This document shows, piece by piece, positions 3,272 to 26,056 of a stretch of 26,056 nt of DNA. Under the pieces are notes generated by a model. That model worked only from the letters and a program-made list of their open reading frames with translations. It made no database searches and was not told where the DNA came from. Within the stretch, counting starts at the first letter, position 1; the number at the start of each line of letters is the position of its first letter. The stretch spans positions 665,742 through 691,797 of the forward strand of contig JADLKH010000004.1 of NCBI GenBank assembly GCA_015657435.1, written 5' to 3'. The position numbers and the translations under genes were made by a program. Source of the DNA: Synergistales bacterium (lineage in GTDB: Bacteria > Synergistota > Synergistia > Synergistales > 79-D21).

Positions 3272-3404
3272 ACTTCAAAAAAAATGAAATAAGAATCCAG
3301 ACATAGCAATTTTACAACACCATGCCCGGCAGGTAAGCTCCCCCTTGGGGTGGGTCGAGTGGTCGATAGGCTCTTTTTACCTTATTCGACAGGGGAGGAT
3401 AAGC
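3272..3404. promoter_or_regulatory. Divergent control region between LysR gene and decarboxylase
   Basis: An AT-rich spacer holds a dyad TTCA-N7-TGAA at 3274-3288. The dyad contains a T-N11-A core of the kind bound by LysR proteins and lies just upstream of the regulator's start. The decarboxylase has a clear ribosome site AGGGGAGGA at 3391-3399. No confident -35/-10 pair was assigned. Confidence 0.4.
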
Positions 3405-4823: not shown

Positions 4824-4852
4824 CCTTACGGGCCAAGCGTTTGCCGGTACAG

Positions 4853-4884
4853 GGGGACCCTCTCTTGAGGGGTCTCCTTTTTTT
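4853..4884 (+). terminator. Intrinsic terminator after the decarboxylase
   Basis: The stem GGGGACCCT (4853-4861) pairs with GGGGTCTCC (4869-4877, with G-T pairs) around a CTCTTGA loop and is followed by seven T bases. It begins 30 bases after the decarboxylase stop. Confidence 0.8.
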
Positions 4885-5040
4885 GATGGCTCCTCTCACT
4901 CGGCGGGTGAATGTGTGGGCAAGAAGGATTGTGATGATCAATGGGGGGAGCCCTGGGGAAGAAGGGCTGGAAGAATAGGTGGAATGAAACGCGTCAGCTG
5001 TATCAGGCTGGAGTGGGTTGAGAGGGGGAGCGGGAGAATT

Positions 5041-5433: not shown

Positions 5434-5668
5434 CTTGTGTCCTCCTTTCCGGGAATCACCGTTAAAGTACATCAAAATCTTTGAAAAAAGGATCCTTTCT
5501 TCCGGATCCGGAGTCCCGACTCATTGAAGCCTGTTGAAGGGAGAATGGCCTTGTTGGGTGAGGACGAGTTCGCGGAGAGACGGCTGGCGCGATGTCTGAC
5601 TGACGGGGAAAGTGAAGGGGACGGACGGAGCGGGTGTTTGGGCGGAGCGGATAGGGGGGAAGCCTTAT

Positions 5669-6508: not shown

Positions 6509-6788
6509 CGTGATAATCCTCCATTGATAGGCCCGTTCATATGATTGAAGCATCAAGGAAAAAGCGTGGCAATTCTCTAGAAGGCCTCACTAAAAACTGT
6601 CCTGTTTACCCCCGCGCCTCACACGCCCTCTCTCGATGCACCTGAACCCGCTCAAGGACAAAGTAGGGGAGTGTCAAAACCCTGGAATCGGGAACATAAG
6701 GGGAGGAGCTATACTCGAATGGGATGCAACGACTAATGTTTTGGCCTATATTTGCATCAAGGCTTTTTTATTTGAGGGGGGAATTTAT

Positions 6789-7940: not shown

Positions 7941-8045
7941 AAACAAAAAAGAGCCCAAGATGAGAGGTTCATGATCAAGGATGAACCGGAAAATCGCTTC
8001 GGGCTTTTTGGGAAGATAGCCATCGTTGAAAAGGAGGCGTTTGGC

Positions 8046-9092: not shown

Positions 9093-9166
9093 CGAACCCG
9101 GGACGGGAACGGGGATAGAGGCCGGTTTTCGCAAAGAGGAAATGCCGCTTTGGGGAGGTCGATCCC

Positions 9167-10318
9167 ATGGTGAGTGGCCAGGACATTAAAAAAGCGGTAA
9201 GAGCCCGCGGTCGGGAAATCGTGGGTTTCCTGGCGAGGGTCCTTCAGACACCGAGCGTGACGGGCGATGAAGCCGCGTTGGCGGGAGTGATCGCCGGGGA
9301 AATTGAACGGATGGGTCTCAAGCCGCAAATCGAGGAAGCCGAAAAAGGAAGGCCCAATGTCCTGGCAGAGTGGAAGGGGTTCCCCGGGCCTCGGTTTGTC
9401 TTCAACGGCCATATGGACGTGTTTCCCCCTACCGCGGGAGAGCAGGGAAAGTACGGACCCTGGTCGGGTCAGGTGGAAGGGGACTGGATCTATGGCAGGG
9501 GCGCCAGCGACATGAAATCCGGGCTTTGCGGCTCGATCATGGCGGTTCGGGTCCTCAGGGGAATGGGACTCCTGCCGAAGGGGAGCGTCCTGCTGACGTG
9601 TACCTGTGACGAGGAGGTCGGCGGCAGGCTGGGCGTGAAACACCTGCTCCAAAAAGGCCTGATTACGGGCGATTTCGGACTGAACATGGAACCAACGGAC
9701 CTGAAGCTTCTGCTCAGCCATAGCGGCATTTACAGGGCGCGTTTCACCTTCGAAGGCAAAGCCGCTTCTTCCAGCAAACCCGGTGACGGTGTCGACGCTC
9801 TCGAAAAATCCATAAGGGCTGTCCAGGCCCTTTATGAGCTTGGGGAAAGGATCAAAGAACGTTCTGTCCAAGGTTGGGGAAGCCCGACTCTCAGTGTGAC
9901 CACGCTTCATGCCGGGACAGCGACGAACGTGCTGGCTGACCGCAGCACGTTCTCCATAGACAGGAGGCTGGTCCCGGGAGAGAGCCACGAAGCGGTGGAA
10001 GCGGAGATCCTGGATGTCCTTGAAATGCAGAAAAATAAGGATCCGGATTTTCGCTATATTCGCGAAATCATCTCTGACCGTCCGGCGCTGGATGTCCCGC
10101 CCGATTCGGGTATCGTGAAGGTCATCGAGAAGGTCTACGAGGATCTCCAGGGCAAGCCGGTAGAAAAGATGACCGCACGCTGGGGATCCGATGCCGCGAA
10201 CATCATGAAAGCCACCGGAATGCCGATGCCTGTCCTCGGTCCCGGCAGGGGGGAAGAAGCCGCGACGGCGAACGAGAAAGTAAGCATCGAGAATTATCTT
10301 GCCTCCGTGGAGATATAG
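9167..10318 (+). CDS. M20 peptidase/deacylase homologue (ArgE/DapE-like) lacking two conserved histidines
   Basis: The 383-residue protein matches the ArgE/DapE/CPG2 group throughout: GHMDVFPP (His82, Asp84), GRGASDMKSG (bridging Asp115), CDEEVGG (general-base Glu149, Glu150), MEPTD (Glu175). Two expected histidines are absent. In the lid domain, FEGKAASSSKPGDGV has Ser201 where relatives have AAHSSKP. Near the C-terminus, GPGRGEEAATANE has Ala366 where relatives have His (AHxxNE), the second zinc ligand. Family enzymes hydrolyse amides of N-acyl amino acids; this one may be inactive, use one metal or do other chemistry. It is last in the apparent operon after the cyclodeaminase homologue. 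The frame is intact, so this is not simple decay. Confidence 0.85.
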   Translation: MVSGQDIKKAVRARGREIVGFLARVLQTPSVTGDEAALAGVIAGEIERMGLKPQIEEAEKGRPNVLAEWKGFPGPRFVFNGHMDVFPPTAGEQGKYGPWSGQVEGDWIYGRGASDMKSGLCGSIMAVRVLRGMGLLPKGSVLLTCTCDEEVGGRLGVKHLLQKGLITGDFGLNMEPTDLKLLLSHSGIYRARFTFEGKAASSSKPGDGVDALEKSIRAVQALYELGERIKERSVQGWGSPTLSVTTLHAGTATNVLADRSTFSIDRRLVPGESHEAVEAEILDVLEMQKNKDPDFRYIREIISDRPALDVPPDSGIVKVIEKVYEDLQGKPVEKMTARWGSDAANIMKATGMPMPVLGPGRGEEAATANEKVSIENYLASVEI

Positions 10319-13128: not shown

Positions 13129-13509
13129 CCTCCGTTTTTCCAGCGCGGGGCTATTGGCGGGTAATGTTCCCCATGGACGACTGACGCCTGCCGGTCGTCT
13201 CGAAATTCAACTCCCCTCCGGATAATTTCTTCCCGATTCCAGGACGGGTTTCGTCCTGTTCTACTCTGTTCTTTTGGCAGCCTTTCGGCTGCGGTCTCCC
13301 GTTTGGTGACTTGTCCTTCGGGTTGTGTCGCTGTTGCCCATTCCCCTCCGTGGAATCACGCGGAACCAGTCAACGAAAGGTCAATAGAAGAAAAAGCAGG
13401 AGGATAACGATGCGTCAAGGGAAAATTCTGAACAGATTTTGCAATCAAGAATTCCATGGTAGAATAAATGTGCTACAAGATTTTAATCTTTGTTTGTTGG
13501 GGGGTTCAC
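13129..13509 (+). promoter_or_regulatory. Leader region of the RiPP locus with short hairpins
   Basis: This 380-base stretch upstream of the first precursor holds no convincing gene. Two clear hairpins occur: CAGGACG (13240-13246) with CGTCCTG (13252-13258), and GCAGCC (13277-13282) with GGCTGC (13287-13292). A weaker one has a TTCG loop near 13317. A near-ideal ribosome site GCAGGAGG (13396-13403) precedes an ATG at 13410 whose frame runs through the precursor gene out of phase. TTTAAT at 13482-13487 may be a -10 box, at the same distance from the start codon as TATAAT before precursor 3. No known riboswitch consensus was recognised. Confidence 0.4.
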
Positions 13510-13549
13510 ATGTCAATTGCAAGCGCAAAGGCCTTTTTGGAGAAGATGA
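13484..13549 (+). repeat. 66-base direct repeat, copy 1 (precursor 1 start region)
   Basis: This block, from the probable -10 region through the ribosome site (six G bases) and the first 13 codons of precursor 1, is identical to 18042-18107 except for one base in the untranslated part (TTTGTT versus TTTCTT). Identity of the untranslated bases shows recent duplication or gene conversion of the expression signal with the leader. Confidence 0.9.
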
Positions 13550-13818
13550 AGGAGGACTCGGCCTTCAAGACGAAGGTCCTGTCCCTTCCTTCGACGGGGG
13601 ACGAGAGGAAGAAGTTCGTGATGGGCTCCGGGTTCGACTTCACCTTTGCCGAACTCCAGCAGGCAACGACTACCGTGACTCTCAAGAAGGACGACGAGAT
13701 CAGCCCCGAGGACCTGGACCAGATCGCGGCGGCCTGCATCGGGATGGCAACGGTAACCGTGGCTGCGGCTACGGGAGGTGCGGTTGTCGGGACGATCGTT
13801 TCGGATTCGGTGAGCTAG
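13510..13818 (+). CDS. RiPP precursor P1 with Nif11-type leader
   Basis: This 102-residue peptide precursor opens with the Nif11-like pattern MSIASAKAFLEKMKEDSAFK and continues through KKFVMGSGFDFTFAELQQA to SPEDLDQIAAA. By alignment with the usual ELEGVAGG junction, the cut site is expected after Ala75, leaving a 27-residue core. The core starts CIGMATVTV, passes through AAATGGAVVG and ends in TIVSDSVS. The core has no aromatic residue and only its first residue is Cys, so lanthionine chemistry is unlikely. GGGGGG lies 6 bases before the ATG; the open frame upstream to 13468 has no ribosome site. A 19-bp hairpin and a radical SAM gene follow, suggesting this is the substrate of rSAM1. A C39 exporter is encoded downstream. 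Confidence 0.88.
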   Translation: MSIASAKAFLEKMKEDSAFKTKVLSLPSTGDERKKFVMGSGFDFTFAELQQATTTVTLKKDDEISPEDLDQIAAACIGMATVTVAAATGGAVVGTIVSDSVS

Positions 13819-13861
13819 GGGAGAGGTTCCATTCGTTAAAAACAAAACATGCGATCGTGAT

Positions 13862-13908
13862 CAACGGACGGCCATGCTCAATCGGTTTCTGAGCATGGTC
13901 GTCTGTTG
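13862..13908 (+). promoter_or_regulatory. 19-bp RNA hairpin between P1 and rSAM1
   Basis: Bases 13862-13880 pair without a gap with 13890-13908 (two G-U pairs), leaving a 9-base loop ATCGGTTTC. No T run follows, so it is more likely an RNA-stability or processing element, or a partial attenuator, than a full terminator. It would let the precursor message outnumber the enzyme message. The core GGCCATGCTC / GAGCATGG is also present in the hairpin after P3. Confidence 0.75.
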
Positions 13909-13938
13909 GAGGTTGCAGGGGAGGAGACGGCCTATCCC

Positions 13939-15831
13939 ATGAGGAACAAAAAATGCCTGATGATGCTGTCGCCCTTGGAAATGCCTACACATCCTTATGC
14001 GAGCGTGCCGCAGCTTGTGACCTGGCTGAGAGCCAATGGCCGGCCCACGGATGCACTGGATTTGAATCTTGAGTTTTTCTGGTGGCTTATTGAGAAAAAT
14101 GAGGAGAAGAGCCTCTTTGCCGCAGCATGGGAAGAGTTGAAGGACCTGAACGCCAGGGAGAAGCTTGCCGGGGAGGAAGCCTGGAGGTTCGCGTCATTGT
14201 ACCGGATATTCCAGTTCCTGGACTACCTCTCGCTGGTCCCCGACAAGGCTTTTTTCGAAAAAGGAAAGTACAGGTCCCTTTACCTCATGACTGCGAACAT
14301 GTTCCCTCCCCTTGCCGTGCCGTTGAAGAAGGACGGCGCGAACGAGAGCATCTCGTACGAATATGCCACCGTGAAATACAGGGGTGACGCGAATTACGCC
14401 TCCAGTGCCAGCCTCGTTGCATCGATAGAGAAGGGGTCCATCCTGGACGAATTTTTCGAGGACTTTTTAAGTAAGCGGATTTTGCATGAGGATTACCTGT
14501 TTGTGGGGATATCCGTGCCCTTCTTCTCTCAATGCGAACCTGCGATGAGGCTTGCCCGTGCAATCAAGAGGATGAACCCGGGGGTCCATATATGCCTCGG
14601 GGGAAATTATGTCGGGCTCCACCTTTCTCATACGGAGAATCCGGATGTCTTCAAATATATCGATTCGCTGTCGGTAGGGGACGGCGAGATTCCGCTCCTG
14701 GAGCTGGGCGGTGAACTCGAGTCGCCATGCCCGGACATGGGCAGGGTATCGGGGTTGGTGTACCTGGAGGGCGGCAAGGTGAGAAGGAATCCGCGGGGGT
14801 CTTTCGTGCCGCTTGACCAGATACCGGTCCCTGATGAAATTTTCGACAGGAGCCGGTATTTCAACCCGGCCGGCGACTCCTTCATCCGCATCAGGTTTTC
14901 GGAAGGCTGCTCGTGGGGCCGGTGCGCCTTCTGCAACCTGGCCGGCTGCGGCTTGTTCCCGCTGCAGAGGCCGGACGAGAACAAGATGTTCGAGAAGATC
15001 AGGACCCTCGTGAACCGCGGCGAAAAAATCCTCTACCTGGGTGATGACGAGTCGGATATCGACGCGCTCGAACGTTTTGCGAAACGTGTCATCGCAGAAG
15101 GTCTTGTCTTTAAGTGGGAAACGAATATCCGTTTCAGCCCGGGGGTTACCCTCGAATGGGCCATGCTGATGCGGCAGGCCGGGTGCAATGGTTTGGCGAT
15201 CGGCCTTGAAAACTATGATGACCGGTTGCTGCGGCATATCGAAAAAGGAACGAGTGTCGCCCTGATCGACCAGTGCCTGGAAAATCTCGCGTGGGCGGGG
15301 GTTCCCGTAATGGCTTACATGATGGTGGGACTTCCCACGGAGTCGGAGGAGGAGGCCAGGAGGTCCTTCGGAAGGCTTATCGAAAAGGTGCGGGGAGGGT
15401 ACATCAAGAGTGTTTTCTACAGCCTTTATGCGGTTTCGAGGGACTCGCCGATCGACAGGAATCCGGGCAAGTACGGGGTCACACTCCCTCCGCAGGATCC
15501 CGAACTCGACCTTCGCCCTGGTTATGGGGTTTTTGAACATTCAGGGATGTCTCATAAAAAGGCCGTTGAACTGCAGCTCGAGTTCACGGAAAAAATCGCC
15601 GAAGTGAACGCAACGCTGCATTTTACGGAAAAGCAGGGCCAATACCTGTTCGTGAAGGAGGGTTCGCCTCGTTCCGCGGAAAACGCTCCGGTTCCCGGAA
15701 TGATTTCCTGGCAGGGAGAAAGTCTTACCCTGCGTGGAGATGCCGAGGGCATTTCCTTGAAGACTTACGATCCGGGGGCGTTGACCAAATTGAGAATCAT
15801 AAAGGACCAGGAAATCAGTCTTGACGGATAA
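13939..15831 (+). CDS. Cobalamin-binding-type radical SAM maturase rSAM1
   Basis: This 630-residue enzyme has an N-terminal B12-binding-like domain (about 1-290): a CLMMLSPLEMPTHPYASVPQ start, YLFVGISVPFFSQCEPAM, then CLGGNYVGLH and DSLSVGDGEIP. The radical SAM barrel follows, with cluster cysteines C324, C329 and C332 in GCSWGRCAFCNLAGC, a CX4CX2C spacing instead of CX3CX2C, then LGDDESD and VGLPTESEEEA. Such enzymes methylate or rearrange unactivated carbons using SAM and often cobalamin. The usual cobalamin DxHxxG motif is not seen. It likely modifies P1. ATG 13939 is chosen because rSAM3 begins at the same point; an upstream TTG lies inside the hairpin. Its end overlaps rSAM2 by 11 bases. 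Confidence 0.88.
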   Translation: MRNKKCLMMLSPLEMPTHPYASVPQLVTWLRANGRPTDALDLNLEFFWWLIEKNEEKSLFAAAWEELKDLNAREKLAGEEAWRFASLYRIFQFLDYLSLVPDKAFFEKGKYRSLYLMTANMFPPLAVPLKKDGANESISYEYATVKYRGDANYASSASLVASIEKGSILDEFFEDFLSKRILHEDYLFVGISVPFFSQCEPAMRLARAIKRMNPGVHICLGGNYVGLHLSHTENPDVFKYIDSLSVGDGEIPLLELGGELESPCPDMGRVSGLVYLEGGKVRRNPRGSFVPLDQIPVPDEIFDRSRYFNPAGDSFIRIRFSEGCSWGRCAFCNLAGCGLFPLQRPDENKMFEKIRTLVNRGEKILYLGDDESDIDALERFAKRVIAEGLVFKWETNIRFSPGVTLEWAMLMRQAGCNGLAIGLENYDDRLLRHIEKGTSVALIDQCLENLAWAGVPVMAYMMVGLPTESEEEARRSFGRLIEKVRGGYIKSVFYSLYAVSRDSPIDRNPGKYGVTLPPQDPELDLRPGYGVFEHSGMSHKKAVELQLEFTEKIAEVNATLHFTEKQGQYLFVKEGSPRSAENAPVPGMISWQGESLTLRGDAEGISLKTYDPGALTKLRIIKDQEISLDG

Positions 15832-17485
15832 ATCGCTGCTGATCCTCTCTCCCCTGGAAATGCCCACACACCCCTATGCCAGCGTGCCTCAGCTGATTGC
15901 TGCGGCCGAGGCCTCGGGTTGCCTGGTCGAGGGGCTGGATATGAACCTGGAGTTTCACCACTGGCTCTTCGCACGAGAGCGAATGGAAGAGACTCTCCGG
16001 AAGGCCCGCCTTTTGCTGGAGGCAGAAGGTGGAGCGTCTTCCCATGATTCCCTTGAGGCCGGGAAGGCGAGAGAAATCCTGTCCGCGATCGATGGCATGG
16101 GGGAGGGCTTTTTTTTCGCCCTCGATGTCACGGACCGAAGAGGGAGAGGTCTTAGGCTCCAAGCGGTGAAGCTCGCTGTCTCTCTTGCCTTTTGTGTCAA
16201 CGATGAAGAGACCGTCTCGGGGGTGTTCGGGAATGTCTCTCCAGGCGGAGCGGATCCCTATTCGAGCAGGAGCCTGTGCAATTCTCTCAAAAACAGAACA
16301 GGGCTTCTCGACGATTTTTATGACAGTTTCCTGCCCGGGTTCTTCGCCGGTAAAACGTTCTTGTTCGCCGGCATTTCCATCCCTTTCGCGTGGCAGGCAG
16401 AACCTGCGTTGCGCCTTGCCGCGTCGATCAGGAGGATTGTTCCCGGGCTTCCGGTTGTCCTCGGGGGAAGTTATGTCGGTATGCACCTGGCGGAGACCCG
16501 GGCACCCGAGCTCTTTGATTATTTTGACGCGATGTTCGTCGGGCGTGGAGAGCGCCAGGTCATCGAGCTGCACAAAGCAGCCCTGTCGGGACGGATCGAC
16601 TTTTCGACGATCGACGGTTCGGTCTACATGAAGAACGGCAAGGTCTGCAGGACTCCATTGGGAAACATCCTGCCCCTGGATGAGGTTCCCGCGCCGAAGC
16701 TGACGTTCGACCGGTCGAGGTATTTTTGCACGGAAGCCGATCATTTCCTTCGGTTGCAGCTTTCGATGGGGTGCAGCTGGGCCCGCTGCGCGTTCTGCAA
16801 CCTTTCCGGGTGCAAGCTGTTTCCGAGGCAGCAGGCTTCTGTAGACGAAGCGGTCAGGAAGGTCCGTTCGCTGCTCGACCTGGGCATCAAGAGGATTTTT
16901 TTCGGCGACGACGAGGCTGACCCCGGCATGTTGGCAGAGTTTGCAGGCGCTGTCATAAAAGAAGGCCTGCACTTCGAATGGAGCATCAATCTTCGATTTC
17001 ATCCCTTGATGGACATGGAATGGGCGCTTCTTCTGAAACAGGCGGGGTGTTCCCGGATTTTCGTCGGTCTCGAGCATTTTGACGAAAGAATCCTTGGAAG
17101 CCTGAATAAAGGAACGACCGTCAAACTTATCGACGAATGCCTGAATAATCTTGCATGGGCGGGAATCGCGGTAACGGCCTACATGATGGTCGGGCTTCCG
17201 GGGGAAAGCCGCGAGGATGCGGAAAAATCCTTTGGAGAACTGGTTGGGCGGATTCGCGAAGGCCTTATCGAAAACGCTATCTACAGCGTTTTTTCGATAA
17301 CCCCCGGTTCACCTATCGCTGAAGACCCACAAAAATACGGCATCACGAAAGTCTATCCCCAGGAATGTGACCTGAAACCTGCGATTGGGGATTTTGAACA
17401 TGACGGAATAAGCAGGCGGGAAGCCTCCGCCCTTGCCGCGAGGTTTGAGAGGATCATCGCGGAGCATCGCAGGAAAGAGGGGTAA
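15821..17485 (+). CDS. Cobalamin-binding-type radical SAM maturase rSAM2
   Basis: This 554-residue paralogue of rSAM1 starts at a TTG inside the end of rSAM1 (11-base overlap, AGGAA 8 bases upstream), so the two are translationally coupled. It keeps LSPLEMPTHPYASVPQL, FAGISIPFAWQAEPALR, VLGGSYVGMHL and a cluster motif GCSWARCAFCNLSGC (C318, C323, C326; CX4CX2C). FGDDEADPG and MMVGLPGESREDA follow. It lacks the roughly 70-residue C-terminal tail of rSAM1 and rSAM3 and is clearly more divergent. Precursor P2 follows 74 bases later, so P2 is its likely substrate, although action on all three precursors is possible. The reaction is unknown; C-methylation or another radical change at Val, Thr, Ser or Ala carbons is the best guess. 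Confidence 0.87.
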   Translation: MTDKSLLILSPLEMPTHPYASVPQLIAAAEASGCLVEGLDMNLEFHHWLFARERMEETLRKARLLLEAEGGASSHDSLEAGKAREILSAIDGMGEGFFFALDVTDRRGRGLRLQAVKLAVSLAFCVNDEETVSGVFGNVSPGGADPYSSRSLCNSLKNRTGLLDDFYDSFLPGFFAGKTFLFAGISIPFAWQAEPALRLAASIRRIVPGLPVVLGGSYVGMHLAETRAPELFDYFDAMFVGRGERQVIELHKAALSGRIDFSTIDGSVYMKNGKVCRTPLGNILPLDEVPAPKLTFDRSRYFCTEADHFLRLQLSMGCSWARCAFCNLSGCKLFPRQQASVDEAVRKVRSLLDLGIKRIFFGDDEADPGMLAEFAGAVIKEGLHFEWSINLRFHPLMDMEWALLLKQAGCSRIFVGLEHFDERILGSLNKGTTVKLIDECLNNLAWAGIAVTAYMMVGLPGESREDAEKSFGELVGRIREGLIENAIYSVFSITPGSPIAEDPQKYGITKVYPQECDLKPAIGDFEHDGISRREASALAARFERIIAEHRRKEG

Positions 17486-17559
17486 GGCGGGCAGGAAGTC
17501 GGGCCTCTTTCCGGGTCGGGAGTTCATGCTTCTAATTTTTACTTTTTGGAGGGATCGGA

Positions 17560-17874
17560 ATGTCAATTGAAAGCGCAAAGAGTTTTCTGGAGAGAATGAA
17601 GACTGACGCGGACTTCAAGACGAAAGTCCTGTCTCTTCCTTCGACGGGAGATGCCAGGAAGAAGTACGTGACGGGCGCCGGGTTTGACTTCACCTTTGCC
17701 GATCTTCAGCAGGCGTCGACCACCCTGGTTCTCGAAGAAGACGACCAGATCAGCCCCGAGGACCTTGACCAGATCGCCGCAGCCTGCATCGGGCTGGCAA
17801 CAGTGGGGGTCAGCGTGGCTGCAGCTACTGGAGGTGCGATTATCGGATCGGTTGTTTCCGACTCGGTGAGTTAG
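17560..17874 (+). CDS. RiPP precursor P2 with Nif11-type leader
   Basis: This 104-residue precursor has the same Nif11 pattern as P1, with changes throughout (MSIESAKSFLERMKTDADF, then KKYVTGAGFDFTFADLQQA), and again 75 residues to SPEDLDQIAAA. The predicted core has 29 residues: CIGLATVGVSV, then AAATGGAIIG, then SVVSDSVS. It matches the P1 core except for two extra residues and conservative changes. The ribosome site GGAGGG lies 6 bases before the ATG. The gene follows rSAM2 rather than preceding its enzyme, the reverse of the P1 and P3 order. A strong terminator lies 47 bases after the stop. Confidence 0.88.
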   Translation: MSIESAKSFLERMKTDADFKTKVLSLPSTGDARKKYVTGAGFDFTFADLQQASTTLVLEEDDQISPEDLDQIAAACIGLATVGVSVAAATGGAIIGSVVSDSVS

Positions 17875-17920
17875 GCCAAGGTATTTTATTTATCCCGGGA
17901 GAAGCCTCGGGGTGTTGGTC

Positions 17921-17964
17921 AAAACAGACCTTTCTCTTTTCGGCAGGGGCAAGGTCTGTTTTTT
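17921..17964 (+). terminator. Intrinsic terminator after P2
   Basis: AAAACAGACCTT (17921-17932) pairs perfectly over 12 bp with AAGGTCTGTTTT (17951-17962) and a run of T bases ends at 17964. It would end the P1 to P2 transcript and separates it from the P3 unit. Confidence 0.85.
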
Positions 17965-17992
17965 AAATAATTCCGGCATAAAGGAAAGGCGC

Positions 17993-18060
17993 TAGCACGT
18001 TAATCTAAATATTAATCTTTGTGCTAAAATATTCATGCGTATAATCTTTGTTTCTTGGGG
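17993..18060 (+). promoter_or_regulatory. Promoter and inverted repeat before P3
   Basis: A perfect -10 box TATAAT lies at 18040-18045; the -35 is weak (TTGTGC at 18019-18024, 15-base spacer). Just upstream is an interrupted inverted repeat: TAGCAC (17993-17998) with GTGCTA (18021-18026), and inside it TTAAT (18000-18004) with ATTAA (18011-18015). This could be an operator. A GTGCTA half-site also lies upstream of P1 at 13470-13475. The ribosome site is six G bases near 18057-18062. Confidence 0.5.
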
Positions 18061-18107
18061 GGTTCACATGTCAATTGCAAGCGCAAAGGCCTTTTTGGAG
18101 AAGATGA
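18042..18107 (+). repeat. 66-base direct repeat, copy 2 (precursor 3 start region)
   Basis: This is the second copy of the block at 13484-13549, covering the end of the -10 region, the ribosome site and the first 13 codons of P3, with one mismatch. Confidence 0.9.
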
Positions 18108-18361
18108 GGGCTGACGCGGGCTTCAAGACGAAAGTCCTCTCCCTTCCTTCGACGGGCGACGAGAGGAAAAAGTTCGTGATGGGTTCGGGGTTCGACTTTA
18201 CCTTTGCCGAACTCCAGCAGGCAACGGCTGCCGTGACGCTCAATAAAGACGATCAGATCGGCCCCGAAGACCTGGACCAGATCGCCGCGGCCTGTATCGG
18301 GCTCTCTTCGGTGTCGGTTGTCAACGTGGTCGGTGCTCCCATAACCTCACCTATGGCCTGA
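18068..18361 (+). CDS. RiPP precursor P3 with Nif11-type leader and divergent core
   Basis: This 97-residue precursor has a leader almost identical to that of P1 (MSIASAKAFLEKMRADAGF, KKFVMGSGFDFTFAELQQA), 75 residues to the same DLDQIAAA junction. The 22-residue core shares only CIG with the other two; it continues LSSVSVVNVVGAPITSPMA, with two Pro and one Asn and no GG. The pattern of constant leader and variable core fits a substrate-tolerant maturation enzyme. The ATG is preceded by the same GGGGGGTTCAC site as P1. Two hairpins and rSAM3 follow on the same strand. Confidence 0.88.
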   Translation: MSIASAKAFLEKMRADAGFKTKVLSLPSTGDERKKFVMGSGFDFTFAELQQATAAVTLNKDDQIGPEDLDQIAAACIGLSSVSVVNVVGAPITSPMA

Positions 18362-18364
18362 CCT

Positions 18365-18392
18365 GGACTCCGGAACGACCGTTTCGGAGTCC
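18365..18392 (+). promoter_or_regulatory. 12-bp hairpin directly after P3
   Basis: GGACTCCGGAAC pairs with GTTTCGGAGTCC (one G-T pair) around a GACC loop, three bases after the P3 stop. No T run follows. It probably protects the 3' end of the precursor message or weakens read-through. Confidence 0.65.
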
Positions 18393-18420
18393 CCGGGAAC
18401 GCGTCATACGGTTGTAGCGG

Positions 18421-18466
18421 AAGAAAGGCCATGCTCTTGCGGTTGTCGAGCATGGCCTTTCTTTAG
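18421..18466 (+). terminator. 16-bp hairpin between P3 and rSAM3 (likely partial terminator)
   Basis: AAGAAAGGCCATGCTC (18421-18436) pairs perfectly with GAGCATGGCCTTTCTT (18448-18463) over an 11-base loop TTGCGGTTGTC. The pyrimidine end CTTTCTTT gives it terminator character, yet rSAM3 follows 36 bases later and has no clear promoter of its own. Partial read-through would set a high precursor to enzyme ratio. The stem core and the loop CGGTT are shared with the hairpin at 13862. Confidence 0.65.
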
Positions 18467-18501
18467 AAATAAAACACGTCGAATTGGGGGCGACCCGTTC
18501 C

Positions 18502-20367
18502 ATGGGGAAGAAGAAATGCCTGATGATCCTGTCGCCTTTGGAGATGCCGACCCACCCGTACGCGAGCGTGCCGCAGCTTGTGACCTGGCTGAGGGCAAAC
18601 GGGCGGCCCGCGGATGCGCTGGATTTGAACCTTGAGTTTTTCTGGTGGCTGATAGAGAAAAACGAGAAGGAGGACCTCTTTTCCTCCGCCTGGCGAGAGC
18701 TGAAAGTCCTGAACTCCAGGGAGAGACTCATTGGTGAGGAAGCCCGCAGGTTCGCGTCGTTGTACCGGGTTTTCCAGTTCCTGGACTACCTGCCGCTGGT
18801 GCCCGGCAAGTCGTTTTTCCAGGATATCAGGTACCGGCCGCTTTACCTGATGATCGCGAACATGTTCCCTGCCGTTGCCGTGCCGTTGAGGAAGGGCAAG
18901 GCGAACGAGAGCGTTTCGTACGAATATGCCTCGATAAAGTACAAGGGAGAGGCAAATTACGCTTCCAGTGCCAGCCTCGTGGAGTCGATAGAGAAGTGGT
19001 CTATCCTGGACGACTTTTTCGGGGAGTTCCTTGAACGTCGAATTCTGGATGAGGATTACCTGTTCGTGGGGGTATCCGTGCCCTTCTTCTCACAATGCGA
19101 GCCCGCCATGAGGATCGCCCGCGCGATCAAGAAGATCAGGCCGACTCTCCATATGTGCCTCGGGGGCAATTATGTCGGGCTCCACCTTTCCCATACCGAG
19201 AACCCGGATGTCTTCAAATACATCGATTCTCTGTCGGTGGGGGATGGCGAGATCCCGCTTTTGGAGTTGGGGGAAGAACTGGAGTCTCCCTCACCCTGCC
19301 TGGGCAGGGTGTCCGGGCTGGTGTACCAGGAGGGGGGCAGGGTGAGGAGGAACCCGCGCGGGTCTTTCGTGCCCCTTGACCGGATACCGGTTCCTGATGA
19401 AATTTTCGACAGGAGCCGGTATTTCAACCCGGCCGGTGACTCCTTCATTCGCATCAGGCTTTCGGAGGGCTGTTCATGGGGTCGGTGCGCATTCTGCAAC
19501 CTGTCCGGCTGCGGGCTGTACCCGTTGCAGAGGCCGGATGAGAGCAAAATGTTCGAGAAGATCAGGACCCTCGTGGGCCGCGGTGAAAAAATCGTCTATT
19601 TCGGGGACGACGAGTCGGACATAGACGCTCTGGAGCGTTTTGCGAAGCGGGTGGTTAAGGAGGGACTCGTCTTCAACTGGGCGACCAACATCCGTTTTAG
19701 CGAGGGCATCACCCTCGAGTGGGCCATGCTGATGCGGCAGGCGGGGTGCAGCGGGCTTGCGATAGGGCTGGAGAGTTACCATAACCGGATATTGGGGCAC
19801 ATCCGGAAGGGAACGAGCGCAGAGTTGATCGACCAGTGCCTGGAGAACCTGGCATGGGCCGGCGTTCCCGTCACGGCGTACATGATGGTGGGGCTTCCTA
19901 CGGAGACGGAAAAGGAGGCGCGGGAGTCCTTCGAGCGGCTGATGGGAAAAATAAGGGGAGGATATATCAAGGGAGTCCTTTACAGCCTTTATGCGGTTTC
20001 AAGGGACTCGCCGATAGACAGGAACCCTGGGAAGTACGGGGTCGTGCTCCCGGCTCAGGATCCGGAGCTCGACCTTCGTCCAGGGTATGCAGTTTTCGAA
20101 CACTCGGGCATGTCCCATGAAAAGGCCGTCGAGCTGCAGCTCGAATTCTCGGGAAAAATAGCCGAAGCGGCCACGACGATAGATTTCGTGGAAAAGGCGG
20201 CTTCTGCCCTGTCGGGAAAGGGAAAAATGCCGGACTCGAAGGAGAAGGCTCCGGAGTCCTTGTTGTGGAAAAGGGACAGTCTTCTCCCGCGCGCGGATGC
20301 CGAGGAAATTTCCCAAAAGGCTTACGATGTTGGGTCGCTGGCGAAATACAGGGTAAGAAAAGGTTAG
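18502..20367 (+). CDS. Cobalamin-binding-type radical SAM maturase rSAM3
   Basis: This 621-residue enzyme is a close paralogue of rSAM1 along its whole length. It shares LSPLEMPTHPYASVPQL, ALDLNLEFFWWLIEKNE, VSVPFFSQCEPAM, CLGGNYVGLHLSHTENPDVF and the cluster motif GCSWGRCAFCNLSGC, with cysteines at 324, 329 and 332 exactly as in rSAM1. FGDDESDID, AIGLES and MMVGLPTETEKEA continue the barrel. The C-terminal tail (about 550-621) is the most variable part. ATG 18502 is chosen because it aligns with rSAM1 and has GGGGG about 10 bases upstream; the frame opens at a TTG at 18484. Its nearest precursor is P3, so it is the likely P3 enzyme. The gene converges with rSAM4. Confidence 0.88.
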   Translation: MGKKKCLMILSPLEMPTHPYASVPQLVTWLRANGRPADALDLNLEFFWWLIEKNEKEDLFSSAWRELKVLNSRERLIGEEARRFASLYRVFQFLDYLPLVPGKSFFQDIRYRPLYLMIANMFPAVAVPLRKGKANESVSYEYASIKYKGEANYASSASLVESIEKWSILDDFFGEFLERRILDEDYLFVGVSVPFFSQCEPAMRIARAIKKIRPTLHMCLGGNYVGLHLSHTENPDVFKYIDSLSVGDGEIPLLELGEELESPSPCLGRVSGLVYQEGGRVRRNPRGSFVPLDRIPVPDEIFDRSRYFNPAGDSFIRIRLSEGCSWGRCAFCNLSGCGLYPLQRPDESKMFEKIRTLVGRGEKIVYFGDDESDIDALERFAKRVVKEGLVFNWATNIRFSEGITLEWAMLMRQAGCSGLAIGLESYHNRILGHIRKGTSAELIDQCLENLAWAGVPVTAYMMVGLPTETEKEARESFERLMGKIRGGYIKGVLYSLYAVSRDSPIDRNPGKYGVVLPAQDPELDLRPGYAVFEHSGMSHEKAVELQLEFSGKIAEAATTIDFVEKAASALSGKGKMPDSKEKAPESLLWKRDSLLPRADAEEISQKAYDVGSLAKYRVRKG

Positions 20368-20409
20368 GCAAAACGCTGCCACGTCCGGGGAGCGGCGAAG
20401 GGGGACTTC

Positions 20410-22077
20410 CTATTTCGTTTTCGCGACGTGCAGGTCGATGAGGTCCTGAAACTCGATCTGCAGTTCGACCGCCCGCTTTCGCGAGATCCCCGGGGCCTTA
20501 AAATCAATGATAAGCGGGTTGAGGTCGTCCTTTTTCTGCCTGACCATGTCATGGATTCCATATTTCCCGGGCTCCCTGGCAATAGGAGAAAACGGCTCTA
20601 TGACGAAAAGATTGTAGTAGGCAGAACTTATTTTCCCGTTTTCGAGATGTTCCATCAGCGCGGCGAATGAAGCTCTCGCCTCCTCTTCGGTTTCACTTGG
20701 GTAGCCGATGATCAGGTATGCCGTGACGGGCAGTCCCCCCCACGCGAGCTCCGAGAGGACTTTCTCGATCAGGTCCCGGTTCAGGGCCTTGTTCATTAGA
20801 CGAAGGATCCTGTCGCTGAAGGACTCGATCCCCGTATACAGCCTGCGACATCCGGAGCGTTTGAGCATGGCAGCCCATTCCATCGTCATCCTCGGGTGCA
20901 GCCTGCTTTGGAGGCTCCAGTTGAAGGGGCGGCCTTCCCCAATCGAGCGCCTGGCTATTGCCGCAGCGACCTCAGGATCCGCCTCGTCGTCGCTGAGTGC
21001 GATCCCCCTCTCACCCTTGTCGAGGAGCGCCTTGATTTTTTCGAAAGCTTCCTCCGGGCCGATCCTCTGGGACGGGAATATCCCGCTGCCGTTTACGTTG
21101 CAGAAACTGCAGCGGCCCCAGGTGCAGCCTCGAGAGAGCGAGAGGCGGTAGAGCGGTTCCCCCGGCCAGGAGAGGTAATCCTTCCTGTCGAAGAGTTCGG
21201 TGTGCGGAATGGGGATATCGCTCAAGGGAGTTGGCCTCGAAGGCGGGTTTTCCACGATGGTGCCGTTTTCTCGCCAGATCATGCCGGGAATTTCTTTAGG
21301 CTCGATGGACCCGGCCTGGTAGGAAAGGATCAGTTTTTCGAGAGGCTCTTCCCCGTCGCCGACGACCATTCCGTCAAAAAGATCGAAGAGGTCGCCGTTT
21401 TTGGCGCCGCGGACATGCACGCCGACTGCGGCTCCGCCGAGATACACCGGAAGGGACGGGTAGAATCGCCGAATGGCCCTGCACAGGCGAAGCGCCGGCT
21501 CGATCTGCTTGATGAAGGGGATGGAGATGCCGACAAAGTCATAGCGGCCAAGGTCGAGCGTCGGGAGAACCTCCGCGAAAAAATCGTCGAAAAGGCTCGT
21601 TTTCTCTTTTATCGACCTTAAGAGCGATTCGCTCGAAAACATGTTGCCATGCCCCGCGTATTGGAGTGAGACCACGGTAAAAAGCCTTTCGGGGAAAGTC
21701 GGGGCGAATGCGAAGTTCAGGGCCGACTCGATTGCAAGAAGGGCCGAACTGAGTGTCTCGTTCTTGCTGTAATCCAGGAGGTTTTCGGCTTCGACACCGT
21801 AGCGTTCCAGGATTTCCGCACACTTTTCGAGGAATTTGAGATGATAGGCTTCTGGTCGAGACAAGGCTTTATCGGCGTGGCGAAGTTGCTCCAGGATCAC
21901 CCTGCCCTTTTGGATTTTTTCTTTCCTGAGCGCCCAGTGGAAAAACCTGATGTTGAGGTCGACCCTGTCTACGGCATGTCCCCGTTCTCTCAGCCACGAA
22001 ACCAGTTGCGGCACCGCGGGATAGGGGTGTGTAGGAAGGTCCAGCGGAGGAAGGATAAGAATAAATTTTTTGCTCAT
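20410..22077 (-). CDS. Cobalamin-binding-type radical SAM maturase rSAM4 (opposite strand)
   Basis: This 555-residue protein belongs to the same family but is more distant. It has ILILPPLDLPTHPYPAVPQ, an N-terminal half with YDFVGISIPFIKQIEPALRL and VYLGGAAVGVHV, then GCTWGRCSFCNVNG (C318, C323, C326; again CX4CX2C), LSDDEADPE and LIIGYPSETEEEA. It lacks the Cys after NLSG that the other three have. The start at 22077 is chosen by alignment with its paralogues and GGGGAA upstream; the frame is open to 22155. No precursor lies next to it on its own strand. It may act in trans on P1-P3 or on a precursor outside the window. It is divergent from the export genes. Confidence 0.87.
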   Translation of the reverse strand: MSKKFILILPPLDLPTHPYPAVPQLVSWLRERGHAVDRVDLNIRFFHWALRKEKIQKGRVILEQLRHADKALSRPEAYHLKFLEKCAEILERYGVEAENLLDYSKNETLSSALLAIESALNFAFAPTFPERLFTVVSLQYAGHGNMFSSESLLRSIKEKTSLFDDFFAEVLPTLDLGRYDFVGISIPFIKQIEPALRLCRAIRRFYPSLPVYLGGAAVGVHVRGAKNGDLFDLFDGMVVGDGEEPLEKLILSYQAGSIEPKEIPGMIWRENGTIVENPPSRPTPLSDIPIPHTELFDRKDYLSWPGEPLYRLSLSRGCTWGRCSFCNVNGSGIFPSQRIGPEEAFEKIKALLDKGERGIALSDDEADPEVAAAIARRSIGEGRPFNWSLQSRLHPRMTMEWAAMLKRSGCRRLYTGIESFSDRILRLMNKALNRDLIEKVLSELAWGGLPVTAYLIIGYPSETEEEARASFAALMEHLENGKISSAYYNLFVIEPFSPIAREPGKYGIHDMVRQKKDDLNPLIIDFKAPGISRKRAVELQIEFQDLIDLHVAKTK

Positions 22078-22243
22078 GCTGTTCCCCGAATCATCGGCAT
22101 TTCGCCTTGAGCTCCCCATAAATTCCATTCTACACGAGTTTAAGAGAACGACCATTCAGAGATCATCCATAAAATGAACCTCTTTCGTCGGCCGGAGAGG
22201 AGACATCTGGAGCTTTCCGCACGACAGTGAAGAAAGTCATCAA

Positions 22244-22272
22244 TTGCGCTTCCATTGGGAGCGCAATATACT
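22244..22272 (+). promoter_or_regulatory. Promoter with inverted-repeat operator before the export genes
   Basis: TTGCGCT (22244-22250) and AGCGCAA (22260-22266) form a perfect 7-bp inverted repeat. TTGCGC can serve as a -35 box and TATACT (22267-22272) as a -10 box with an ideal 17-base spacer. The dyad therefore covers the -35 and the spacer, as a repressor site would. The rest of the 390-base gap 22078-22470 holds no convincing gene; the frame of the HlyD-like gene is open back to 22255, but that part does not look like the protein family. A transcript from here would have a long leader of about 190 bases. Confidence 0.5.
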
Positions 22273-22470
22273 TATAACGAAGTGAAAAGTCCCTGTACTG
22301 CACAAAAAACGAAAGCTTTTATTATCGTGCCGGCGTTCTACCTCGATAGCCAATACAGCGCTTTGAAAAAGCACCAGACACCTGCATCGGAGCCGCAAAG
22401 TCTGGAAGGGTACCCTGGAATCGGGAAAGCAGGTTTTGCCGGTGAGGACGAGGAAGGGGAGGGACATTCC

Positions 22471-23823
22471 TTGATCGTTTTGAACGACGACGATTCAAAG
22501 AAAAAAGACAAGAGTATTTCCTCCATCGAGGAATTGGAAAAAGACCTGATCCGGATACCCAGGAGCTGGGCGCTGGCCTTTATCGCGGCGCTTGTGCTCG
22601 TCGGGACCCTCTTCGTCTGGGGATTCTCGGGATCGATACCCGAGTATTCCCGCGGTCGAGGCGTCATTATTCTTGGCCAGAGATTCTGGCTGATCGAGTC
22701 GGAAACTGCCGGGACCATGGCCCAAATTTATTGCTTTAACGGGATGGCGGTGAAGAAAGGAGCCTTGCTTGCGGATATCAAGCAGCAGGACCTGGAAATG
22801 CAGATCGATGCGAAACGCAAGGAGGCAGAAGATACCCGGAACCTGCTCGAACTCAAGCGGCGCTGGGATAGGGAAAAAACGCTGGTCGAAGACAACTCTT
22901 CAGGGAATCGGCGTAAAAACCTGATGAAAACGATCGAATTGTCGGAAAAGCGCCTCGCGGAAATGAGCCTGCAACTGAAGGATTATGAGGAGTTGCTTGC
23001 AAAACGCTACATCAGCGTTACGCAGTACTCGTCCCTCAAGGGGCAGTACAACCAGCTTCTTGAAAGCATAACCAATCTTCGTACGCAGCTTGATTCGCTT
23101 CCCATCGACAGGTTGCACAACAGGTCTGCCCGAGCCGAAGACATCGAGGAAACAAGGGCACGCCTTGTCCAGGTCGAGAAGGAGCTTGGCAGGCTGGAGG
23201 CGGAGTACCGGACAAAGAGCAAGGTTTATTCGCCGATTGACGCGGTCATCACGCAGACTATGGCTGTCAACGGCATGACCATAACCGAGGGAGCCCCGCT
23301 CTTCCAGCTTGAATTCAACGCCGGGAACAAGGATGTCATGGAAATCGTCAAGGAGCTGAACCGCATCGCCTTTTCCCATAGCGAGGAAGGACAGGACCTC
23401 AAGAATGTCTACCAGGACCTCGAAGTTGTCGCCTACCTTGAAGCCGGGATGGGAGCAAACGTGAGGAAAGGCATGTCCGTAACGGTCATGCCGGATAACA
23501 TGAAAAAAGAAGAGAGCGGTTCGTTGAAAGGGAAAGTCATCTATGCGGAAGAACGGCCCACGACCAGGCTGGAAGCGGACCGGATATTGAAAAACAGGGA
23601 TATCCTGGCCTCGATCTGGCAGGAGAACATGGATTACTACTTTGTTGCGATAAGGCTGGACAGGGACGAGAGCGGCGGTTATCTCTGGACTTCGAAAAGG
23701 GGGTTGAATCGCTCCGTCAACGTCGGGACTCTCGCATCCGTCGAGGTGAGCCTCTACGATAGAAGACCCATCGATTTGCTGATCCCGTACCTGAAAAAGA
23801 TGTTGTTGGGGGTTGGCGAATAA
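22471..23823 (+). CDS. HlyD-type membrane fusion protein, NHLM bacteriocin export type
   Basis: From TTG 22471 the protein has 450 residues: a short acidic/basic cytoplasmic part (LNDDDSKKKDKSISSIEELE), one membrane span at about 32-51 (WALAFIAALVLVGTLFVWGF), a biotinyl-lipoyl-like segment, then a long coiled coil at about 100-225 (QQDLEMQIDAKRKEAEDTRN and following). A second lipoyl half (YSPIDAVITQTMAVNGMTIT) and a beta-barrel end follow. This is the adaptor that links an ABC exporter to the outer envelope; NHLM-system adaptors have this form. AAGGGGAGGG 7 bases upstream supports the TTG; no ATG lies near. It overlaps the ABC gene by one base (TAATG), so both are coupled. It probably exports the P1-P3 products. 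Confidence 0.85.
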   Translation: MIVLNDDDSKKKDKSISSIEELEKDLIRIPRSWALAFIAALVLVGTLFVWGFSGSIPEYSRGRGVIILGQRFWLIESETAGTMAQIYCFNGMAVKKGALLADIKQQDLEMQIDAKRKEAEDTRNLLELKRRWDREKTLVEDNSSGNRRKNLMKTIELSEKRLAEMSLQLKDYEELLAKRYISVTQYSSLKGQYNQLLESITNLRTQLDSLPIDRLHNRSARAEDIEETRARLVQVEKELGRLEAEYRTKSKVYSPIDAVITQTMAVNGMTITEGAPLFQLEFNAGNKDVMEIVKELNRIAFSHSEEGQDLKNVYQDLEVVAYLEAGMGANVRKGMSVTVMPDNMKKEESGSLKGKVIYAEERPTTRLEADRILKNRDILASIWQENMDYYFVAIRLDRDESGGYLWTSKRGLNRSVNVGTLASVEVSLYDRRPIDLLIPYLKKMLLGVGE

Positions 23824-26056
23824 TGGGATTCTTCAAGCTGAAGAAGATTCCGGACCCTCTTGACTGGGGTGGAGGCGACAAGAGAGTCAAGACCCCCATT
23901 CTGATACAGATGCAGGCGACAGAATGCGGGGCTGCGTCCCTCGGTATCGTTATGTCGTATTACGGGCGTTTCGTGCCCCTCGAACAGCTCCGCGAGGATT
24001 GTGCGGTCACCCGTGACGGGAGCAAGGCCAGCAACATCATCAAAGCTTCGAGCCTGTACGGCATGGCCGGGGCAGGCTATGCCAAGCCGGTCGAAAAACT
24101 TGGGGACCTTGCGCTGCCGCTCATCCTGTTCTGGGAGGCCAAGCATTTCCTGGTCCTCGAAGGGAAAAAGGGCTCCCAGTATTATCTGAACGACCCCATT
24201 TCGGGGCATCGCAAGATTACCGAGGAAGAACTCAGGAAAAGTTATTCCGGGATCGTCCTGTCGTTGAAACCGGGCCCCTCGTTCGAGCAGGGCGGCAGCC
24301 CCAAGCGCATTGCCCCCATCCTGTTGTCGACCCTCAGGCCGGTCAGAAATTCTTTCCTGTTTGCGACGTTTGCAGGGCTTTTCCTCGCGCTGATCGCCTT
24401 CTTCCTTGCCGGGTACAACCAGATTTTTATCGATAAGGTGCTTGTAGCCCTGAGTTTCAATTGGACCAAGGCGATCCTCCTGCTTATGGGGCTGACCGTT
24501 TCTGCCCAGGCGATCCTGACCCTCGTCGAGGGATTCGCGCAGATCCGGCAGGAGACGAAACTGTCCATTTCGATGACGTCCCGTTTTGTCATACACATCC
24601 TCCGGCTGCCCATGAGCTTTTTCTCCCAGCGCTTTTCGGGAGAAATCGCAAGCAGGACGTTCTACAACGATCAGGTCGCGAGCATGGTTACGAGAAACAT
24701 TGAAACGACCATCATCTCGGTCATTACCATTCCGCTGTTCTTGTCGATCATCCTTCTCTACGACCCGGTCATTTTGTTGCTCGTCATTCTGGCGATCATC
24801 CTGAATCTGTCTTTTGTCGCCATTACGGGTCCGCTGAAATCGGATTTAAGCGAACGTCTCGTCACCGAGCGCAGCAAGTATATCGGGATGTCCCTCAACG
24901 GGATCAACCTGATTGAATCCCTGAAATCGGCGGGGATGGAGCAGGATTTCTTCTCCCAGATTTCAGGCTACCTTACAAAAAACATGAACATGCAGATCCG
25001 CATGGGGTTTCTCGAGGCGGGCAACGCACCGATCAGCGCGTTCCTGCTATCGCTGACATCCGCGGCGCTCCTCTGTTTCGGGGGGATGCGGTCCATCAGC
25101 GGTTTCATAACGGTCGGCATGCTGATCGCGCTGCAGTCGCTCCTCAATCATGTGATGACACCGGTGGGGCAGCTTGCGGGGGATGTTTCCGTCTTCCAGC
25201 AGGCCGTCGGGACAATCAACAGGATCGACGATGTGCTGAACGCGAAGGCGACCTCCGGATGGCGGCCTTCAACAAGGCTGATGCCGGTTAAAAGAGGCAA
25301 CGAGGCCGAGGCTGGCGAAGAAGACCTTCCAGAAAAGTCGTGGAGACTTTCAGGCAGGCTGGAACTTCGCGATATTACCTTCGGCTACAGCAAGCTTTCG
25401 CCCCCCCTGATCGAAAATTTCTCGCTTGTCCTGAACCCGGGGCAGAGAATCGCCCTTGTCGGAGGGTCCGGCTCAGGCAAAAGCACCGTTGCAAAGCTGA
25501 TTTGCGGTCTTTTGACCCCTTGGTCCGGGGAAGTCCTGTTTGACGGAGCCCCCCTTTCGGAGATCCCGAGAGAGACGCTGGCCTTCTCTTTCTCGTTCGT
25601 AGACCAGGATATCGTCATTTACGAAGGAAGCGTTCTGGACAACCTCACGCTGTGGGACAAGGGGATCCCTTTCGAGGATGTTCTTTCCGCTGCCAGGGAT
25701 GCGGCCATCTATAACGACATCATCGGACGCCCTGACGGATTCGGCACGGCATTGTCGGAAAACGGGCGCAACTTCAGCGGAGGTCAAAGGCAGAGAATCG
25801 ACATCGCACGGGCGCTGTGCAGGAATCCGTCGGTGATTGTCCTCGATGAAGCCACAAGCGCCCTGGACGCGATAACCGAGGTCGAAGTGGACACTGCCCT
25901 GAGAAGGCGTGGGGTCTCTTCGGTGGTCGTGGCCCACCGGCTTTCCACCATCAGGGACAGTGACGAGATCATCGTCCTCGACAAAGGAAAAATATGCGAA
26001 CGGGGAACGCATGACGAATTAATGGCGCTGAAGGGCAAGTATGCCCTTCTCGTGGA
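23823..26056 (+). CDS. C39 peptidase / ABC exporter (NHLM type), cut by right edge
   Basis: About 744 codons are present and the end lies outside the window. The N-terminal C39 peptidase has Gln31, Cys35 (QMQATECGAASLG), His108 (EAKHFLVLEG) and Asp124 (YLNDPISG), the full catalytic set for cutting leader peptides. The membrane domain spans about 160-450 with several hydrophobic helices. The ATPase has Walker A GGSGSGKST (from 547), signature FSGGQRQR (from 651), Walker B VIVLDEATSALD (from 671) and H-loop VVAHRLST. Its start at 23823 overlaps the stop of the HlyD-like gene. This is a one-chain protease-exporter; cutting after the Ala-Ala-Ala junction of P1-P3 during export is inferred. A second NHLM ABC protein, common in such systems, would have to lie to the right. 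Confidence 0.92.
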   Translation, partial: MGFFKLKKIPDPLDWGGGDKRVKTPILIQMQATECGAASLGIVMSYYGRFVPLEQLREDCAVTRDGSKASNIIKASSLYGMAGAGYAKPVEKLGDLALPLILFWEAKHFLVLEGKKGSQYYLNDPISGHRKITEEELRKSYSGIVLSLKPGPSFEQGGSPKRIAPILLSTLRPVRNSFLFATFAGLFLALIAFFLAGYNQIFIDKVLVALSFNWTKAILLLMGLTVSAQAILTLVEGFAQIRQETKLSISMTSRFVIHILRLPMSFFSQRFSGEIASRTFYNDQVASMVTRNIETTIISVITIPLFLSIILLYDPVILLLVILAIILNLSFVAITGPLKSDLSERLVTERSKYIGMSLNGINLIESLKSAGMEQDFFSQISGYLTKNMNMQIRMGFLEAGNAPISAFLLSLTSAALLCFGGMRSISGFITVGMLIALQSLLNHVMTPVGQLAGDVSVFQQAVGTINRIDDVLNAKATSGWRPSTRLMPVKRGNEAEAGEEDLPEKSWRLSGRLELRDITFGYSKLSPPLIENFSLVLNPGQRIALVGGSGSGKSTVAKLICGLLTPWSGEVLFDGAPLSEIPRETLAFSFSFVDQDIVIYEGSVLDNLTLWDKGIPFEDVLSAARDAAIYNDIIGRPDGFGTALSENGRNFSGGQRQRIDIARALCRNPSVIVLDEATSALDAITEVEVDTALRRRGVSSVVVAHRLSTIRDSDEIIVLDKGKICERGTHDELMALKGKYALLV

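Follow-up and report, generated by a model that had tools for sequence, protein, structure and literature searches.

A Synergistales locus combining Nif11-leader precursors with five paralogous radical SAM enzymes of predicted cobalamin type

Organization of the locus

We analyzed a 26,056-nucleotide stretch of the genome of a Synergistales bacterium (GCA_015657435.1; G000:C2:665742-691797 in our numbering, assembly size 2.68 Mb, 86% complete), hereafter the window, which carries a candidate gene cluster for a ribosomally synthesized and post-translationally modified peptide (RiPP). The cluster, which continues past the 3' end of the window, comprises three Nif11-leader precursors (P1-P3), five paralogous radical S-adenosylmethionine (SAM) enzymes (A-E) and a peptide export system in the order P1, A, B, P2, P3, C, D (minus strand), HlyD, ABC1, ABC2, OEP, E:

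13510-13818, plus strand: precursor P1; Nif11 leader ends EDLDQIAAA, predicted core CIGMATVTVAAATGGAVVGTIVSDSVS
13906-15831, plus strand: radical SAM enzyme A; CX4CX2C motif, PF04055 with E 7.9e-16
15821-17485, plus strand: radical SAM enzyme B; PF04055 with E 2.7e-19, 43% identity to A, no PF02310 match
17560-17874, plus strand: precursor P2; predicted core CIGLATVGVSVAAATGGAIIGSVVSDSVS
18068-18361, plus strand: precursor P3; predicted core CIGLSSVSVVNVVGAPITSPMA
18484-20367, plus strand: radical SAM enzyme C; the structure model starts at ATG 18502
20410-22155, minus strand: radical SAM enzyme D; PF04055 with E 7.6e-17, alternative start 22077
22255-23823, plus strand: NHLM HlyD-type adaptor; TIGR03794 with 189.7 bits, cut-off 156.2
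23823-26054, continuing past the window end, plus strand: ABC1, NHLM C39 peptidase/ABC exporter; TIGR03796 with 878.5 bits, cut-off 853.3; PF03412 with E 8.5e-29
3' of the window, after ABC1: ABC2; TIGR03797 with 725.5 bits, cut-off 709.4; start chosen by hand
L004:5294-6772, 3' of the window, between ABC2 and E: OEP-family outer-membrane efflux protein
L004:6843-8750 (G000:C2:695842-697749), 3' of the window: radical SAM enzyme E, the fifth paralogue

According to the family alignment, ATG 13939 is a likelier start of enzyme A than TTG 13906. The last 11 bases of the A gene are shared with the beginning of B. TIGR03794, TIGR03796 and TIGR03797, each above its cut-off, make up a complete NHLM export set, which bears out the HlyD-like adaptor and C39/ABC exporter named in an earlier note on this DNA; because of one unread base at ABC1/ABC2, one gene cannot be told from two there. 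Pattern scans found 14 terminators between the genes (13.9 in shuffled sequences) and two promoters (4.4 in shuffled sequences), so we make no claim on transcription units.

Precursor peptides

All three precursors passed the cut-offs of PF07862 (Nif11; 42.6, 43.7 and 39.5 bits for P1, P2 and P3, respectively; cut-off 23.8) and TIGR03798 (60.6, 62.1 and 53.5 bits; cut-off 32.3), in agreement with the three homologous Nif11 precursors of the earlier note, and no other Nif11 match of the assembly reaches E ≤ 0.001. The scans of P1 and P3 ran from their first in-frame starts (13468 and 18035), which are longer than the aligned start MSI[AE]SAK, the later one in each case. At E ≤ 0.01, TIGR03798 alone was matched by the three precursors, with no match to TIGR03793, the nitrile-hydratase-type proteusin leader.

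A search with a profile of P1-P3 gave 117 proteins with E values of 1e-6 or lower, the best 28 of which were aligned with P1-P3 (31 rows; one of them, P0101, is P2 again). All 31 rows have a leader ending in [IV]AA[AV] with C[IV]G next to it, and a second cysteine after the border occurs in none. The Gly-Gly leader end, which is usual but not universal for Nif11 leaders, is thus not found in P1-P3: all three have IAAA immediately before Cys, in the register of a double-glycine motif (Leu at -7, Ile or Val at -4), so that Ala-Ala or Ala-Val precedes the presumed cut and Cys begins the core. The core border of P1 was inferred from this register.

The cores of P1 and P2 (27 and 29 residues, the long variants) are nearly the same, while the P3 type has 22 residues; other core types in the alignment contain MMIIPAVG or VVVIPAVG and are related to P3, and a short one ends with VDSVR. 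While the leader is conserved among the three window precursors, their cores are short and hydrophobic (Val, Ala, Thr, Ser, Gly, Ile), with no aromatic residue, at most one charged residue and no second cysteine, which leaves little room for internal Cys-Cys thioether crosslinks. A lipoprotein reading of the AAAC motif was rejected on inspection of the sequences, as the leader, a charged Nif11 domain, lacks a hydrophobic signal segment ahead of the cysteine.

Radical SAM enzymes

The four enzymes within the window (A-D) passed PF04055. With identities to A of 78% (C), 63% (E), 43% (B) and 39% (D), all five are paralogues of one family, and all five carry the CX4CX2C cluster motif, within which E has one unread residue. 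The four paralogues of the earlier note therefore stand, with a fifth to be added 3' of the window and with D lying on the minus strand. The B12-binding-like N-termini it described fared less evenly: the Pfam B12-binding domain scored below its cut-off in A, C and D (18.8-27.4 versus 32.1 bits) and was not matched in B, whereas matches to cobalamin-enzyme profiles and the modelled fold of C, the sole enzyme modelled (fold match by VIA-align 2 of Foldseek's top 1000), favor such an N-terminus. The architecture found is that of class-1 cobalamin radical SAM enzymes, an N-terminal Rossmann domain plus a radical SAM barrel. Both the profiles and the model support the assignment of the window enzymes to the cobalamin type, with cobalamin binding predicted.

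Enzymes A-D scored above no cut-off among the NCBIfam families listed. Two assignments were considered and rejected. The first, TIGR03975 (rSAM_ocin_1), is the best NCBIfam match for D and the second-best for A, B and C; however, A-D reach 73.8-104.2 bits and E 71.2 bits against a cut-off of 281.85, while two positive controls from the related genome G092 score 486 and 476 bits. Motif and tree agree with the rejection. Both controls and the protein P0050 have CX7CX2C instead of CX4CX2C, although P0041 and P0045 carry CX4CX2C on the TIGR03975 side of the tree, which weakens the motif as a divider. The tree of 46 rows (24 of the 98 enzyme proteins P0001-P0098; 12 proteins from the window, strain L-13, MAG3 and G092; eight locus proteins; the two controls) separates the window enzymes from the TIGR03975 members with support 100/100; PoyB and PoyC, the type of the latter, are themselves outside the tree. 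The second assignment, the P-methyltransferase PhpK (TIGR04479), reached 66.8-95.1 bits against a cut-off of 600, and the tree is also against it.

Other modifying enzymes and B12 supply in the host genome

The earlier note had seen no LanM, YcaO or other modifying enzymes. Indeed, YcaO, LanC-like and MNIO proteins had no match in the window genome, a result that is limited by its completeness of 86% and that does not extend to other enzyme types such as LanM dehydratase domains. No dehydratase or epimerase was recognised at the locus, and the three SPASM matches in the genome all lie elsewhere. CobS was not found, although it is present in four of four other genomes tested; a cobalamin riboswitch (91 bits) precedes a gene that, read by eye, resembles a TonB-dependent receptor; and the B12-binding cut-off is passed at three other places in the genome. 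For these reasons the host cell very likely imports B12.

Distribution in other genomes

Among 185 Synergistota genomes, enzyme matches with E values of 1e-30 or lower occur in six and Nif11 matches in 37. In four genomes with strong matches, G020 (strain L-13), G021, G022 (MAG3) and G092, to which the calculation was confined, the distance from Nif11 gene to enzyme is 0.4-4.7 kb; the sixth genome, G003, which was left out, has a weak partial enzyme match (115 bits over 287 positions) and no Nif11 gene among the matches listed. Members of two further families within the order show the enzyme-precursor linkage as well. The named relatives in this order and a Synerg-CTERM domain beside the cluster support the Synergistota host presumed by the earlier note.

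Downstream of a Nif11 gene, G022 carries YcaO (PF02624, E 2.7e-73), TfuA (PF07812, E 2.3e-32) and three enzymes of the clade (L054:5703-17220); HlyD, ABC1 and a second ABC gene, found with home-made profiles, come next. G020 (L051) and G021 share this set of matches for Nif11, YcaO, TfuA, enzyme, HlyD and ABC1. The YcaO and TfuA proteins of G022 are nearest to the models of McrA thioamidation, but remain below their cut-offs (203 versus 365 and 164 versus 235 bits), so that thioamidation is a putative function. From gene content, the sister clusters of G020-G022 are predicted to combine thioamide and B12-radical chemistry on one peptide. Strain L-13, a Synergistota bacterium with a complete genome (CP074691.1), carries one of them, with the predicted product GAASWVSATGSAAAGAIGAAAAAI. 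The precursors of L-13, G022 and G092 have the border VAGG or IAGG with no cysteine following. A 9.3 kb contig of G092 has four Nif11 genes ahead of a single enzyme gene and an OEP gene; another contig of this genome (L141:3518-7304) bears two true TIGR03975 C-methyltransferases in tandem.

A contig scan seeded with the five window enzymes gave 20 pattern matches, none of them confirmed. When 13 diverse members were used as seeds, a home-made profile found Nif11 in three of the best 80 of 421 relative loci, all three from Synergistota; many of the 80 are of short length or truncated at a contig end. The nearest named enzyme relatives from other phyla are from Acidobacteria (L062, 39% identity) and Nitrospirae (L064, 31%, two tandem copies), and both genomes hold Nif11 genes on contigs other than those of the enzymes; these are the two of six tested genomes with Nif11, none being found in the tested genomes of Scalindua, Nitrospira, Aminicenantes and Alistipes.

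Two further loci of the Nitrospirae metagenome-assembled genome (MAG) may be mentioned. At L151:3019-7464, a Nif11 precursor with the core SSASWASVGVGAAVGAAG, which resembles the L-13 core, adjoins two YcaO genes and one TfuA gene (home-made profiles), the radical SAM relatives of this MAG being on the separate contig L064. At L147:1465-1764, a Nif11-leader peptide has a Cys/His-rich tail, CQCGHGHGHGNGHGHDHGHGHTHH, and looks metal-binding.

Neighboring genes

Upstream of the cluster, at window positions 3345-10318, lies a row of genes resembling PLP (pyridoxal phosphate) decarboxylase, iron alcohol dehydrogenase, SbnB/ornithine cyclodeaminase and ArgE/DapE deacylase, in which a minus-strand methyltransferase-like gene separates the PLP decarboxylase-like and alcohol dehydrogenase genes; this is possibly an island of diamino-acid metabolism, the best NCBIfam matches being mostly below cut-off. 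Repeat-like proteins with nearly identical C-terminal tails flank the cluster at window positions 879-2198 and at L004:11625-12680. The latter passes the Synerg-CTERM sorting model (27.1 versus 22.5 bits), and the former has no match at E ≤ 1e-5.

Proposed pathway and alternatives

These observations support the RiPP reading of the earlier note, and we consider it fairly probable that the Nif11-leader precursors are C-methylated by the five paralogous class-1 cobalamin radical SAM enzymes, the only visible modifying enzymes, cleaved by the C39 peptidase and exported by the NHLM system. By analogy with known enzymes, the five probably add methyl groups to exported peptides. Each enzyme would bind the precursor leader; SAM would be used to form methylcobalamin and, at the [4Fe-4S] cluster bound by CX4CX2C, a 5'-deoxyadenosyl radical; hydrogen would be abstracted from an unactivated sp3 carbon, probably the C-beta of Val, Ile, Thr or Ala, and a methyl group installed, adding 14 Da per event. 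Different paralogues may serve different positions or different cores. Judging from the transporter family, the C39 peptidase of ABC1 would cut after the Ala-Ala(-Ala) leader end, and the core with its invariant N-terminal cysteine would leave through the HlyD/ABC1/ABC2/outer-membrane system. We infer methylation itself from the precedents of PoyC, which acts on valine (PMC5682303), TmoD and ApyD (PMC11002830), and GenD1 (PMC4340712).

One alternative is dedicated pairing, in which P1 with A, P3 with C and P2 with B yield separate products. It is favored by the observation that P1 with A and P3 with C are copies of one cassette, 260 bases of the precursors being 91% and 1700 bases of the enzymes 81% identical, which would also account for the near one-to-one pairing of precursor and enzyme perceived in the earlier note. 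The ratio of non-synonymous to synonymous substitution rates (dN/dS) between A and C is 0.16, showing that both copies are kept by selection. In the tree the nearest neighbors of A, B, C and E are four different database proteins, A and C thus having close relatives of their own, and these four paralogues seem to predate the divergence from their neighbors; the partner of D is a protein from Acidobacteria (support 100/99). However, the one-to-one impression fails on counting: there are five enzymes for three precursors here, three for one in G020, G021 and G022, and one for four on the G092 contig. As the P1 and P2 cores are moreover nearly alike, dedicated pairing appears somewhat unlikely.

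Another possibility is that the enzymes act on the precursors by a different reaction, a thioether or C-C crosslink via the invariant core cysteine, or an oxidation. Two points favor this reading: the cysteine is at the same place in all 31 aligned precursors (one row being P2 again), and cobalamin radical SAM enzymes that do not methylate are known, namely OxsB/AlsB, ThnL (thioether) and BchE (PMC13331322). On the other hand, the cysteine stands exactly at the predicted leader/core border, where it may be kept for cleavage or recognition, and the precursors of L-13, G022 and G092 are linked to the same enzyme family, yet lack a cysteine after the border. We regard such a reaction as unlikely.

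That the enzymes are ordinary TIGR03975 C-methyltransferases of the PoyB/PoyC type, with nothing new about them, is very improbable, given that their best or second-best NCBIfam rank and the two CX4CX2C proteins on that side of the tree are set against scores of 71-104 bits, the CX7CX2C motif of true members and the tree separation. It is equally hard to believe that they are housekeeping, lipid or cofactor enzymes present by chance, since five paralogues are interspersed with precursors and exporter genes and the linkage recurs in two other families, even though distant homologues occur in Nitrospira, Scalindua, Aminicenantes and Alistipes genomes without Nif11.

Beyond C-methylation as such, we tentatively suggest, without expecting every part to hold, that the locus represents a RiPP subclass based on an undescribed CX4CX2C clade of cobalamin radical SAM enzymes. 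Up to five paralogues would act in turn on one short, hydrophobic core that begins with Cys. A plain Val/Ala/Thr peptide would thereby become tert-leucine-rich, densely C-methylated and membrane-active, with neither dehydration nor epimerisation. In the relatives L-13 and MAG3, the same enzyme family would act on thioamidated peptides, combining backbone thioamides with multiple C-methylations.

Relation to known systems

The polytheonamide precursor has a leader of the nitrile-hydratase type. The window differs from that pathway in its Nif11 leaders, in the lack of a LanC-like gene in the genome and in that no dehydratase or epimerase was recognised at the locus. Both systems have cobalamin-type radical SAM enzymes for a precursor peptide; PoyB and PoyC, two enzymes in one pathway, have C-beta methylation of Val and Ile among their reactions (PMC5682303, PMC11285071). 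They are reported to carry CX7CX2C rather than CX4CX2C. The gentamicin C-methyltransferase GenD1 is a cobalamin-type radical SAM enzyme whose cluster motif is Cx4Cx2C and whose target is an sp3 carbon, but its substrate is an aminoglycoside and not a peptide (PMC4340712).

Nif11 precursors and the exporter families were defined by Haft et al. in 2010 (PMC2887384). A 2014 survey of anaerobes lists putative NHLP/Nif11 clusters in which several radical SAM genes accompany a peptidase-transporter, several of them lacking cyclodehydratase genes (PMC4289311). Those of Desulfotomaculum, Desulfitobacterium, Eggerthella and Desulfarculus resemble the window, by description, in their long leaders, peptidase-transporter and several radical SAM genes, with no cyclodehydratase or dehydrogenase reported; they differ in their VAGG/VSGG borders and in being reported from Actinobacteria, delta-Proteobacteria and Firmicutes only, though three Synergistetes genomes were surveyed (PMC4289311). 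TfuA clusters with Nif11-like precursors contain B12-type radical SAM genes (2021; PMC8120280). Of these, the TfuA-YcaO clusters of Desulforegula, described with family-specific transporters, resemble G020-G022 in make-up (PMC8120280), whereas the window genome has no YcaO match.

Because comparable clusters are listed in PMC4289311 and PMC8120280, the general kind of pathway is already known, and the impression that no described RiPP class fits holds in part only: the enzymes score above no listed NCBIfam cut-off, and no description of their clade was found in open-licence PubMed Central papers. Departures from the known kind lie in the enzyme clade, in the five paralogues to which it has expanded, in the Ala-Ala border and its invariant cysteine, and in the YcaO-TfuA sister clusters.

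Significance

In summary, the locus is real and clean, and both its general kind and its likely chemistry have precedents. Unactivated carbons of peptides are difficult to methylate, and to our knowledge few peptide-acting cobalamin radical SAM enzymes have been characterised. If strain L-13 is obtainable, its sister cluster may give access to the product made by the form with YcaO. With several paralogues provided by nature, each close to a small co-expressible substrate, the clade would allow tests of how leader and sequence control the site of methylation.
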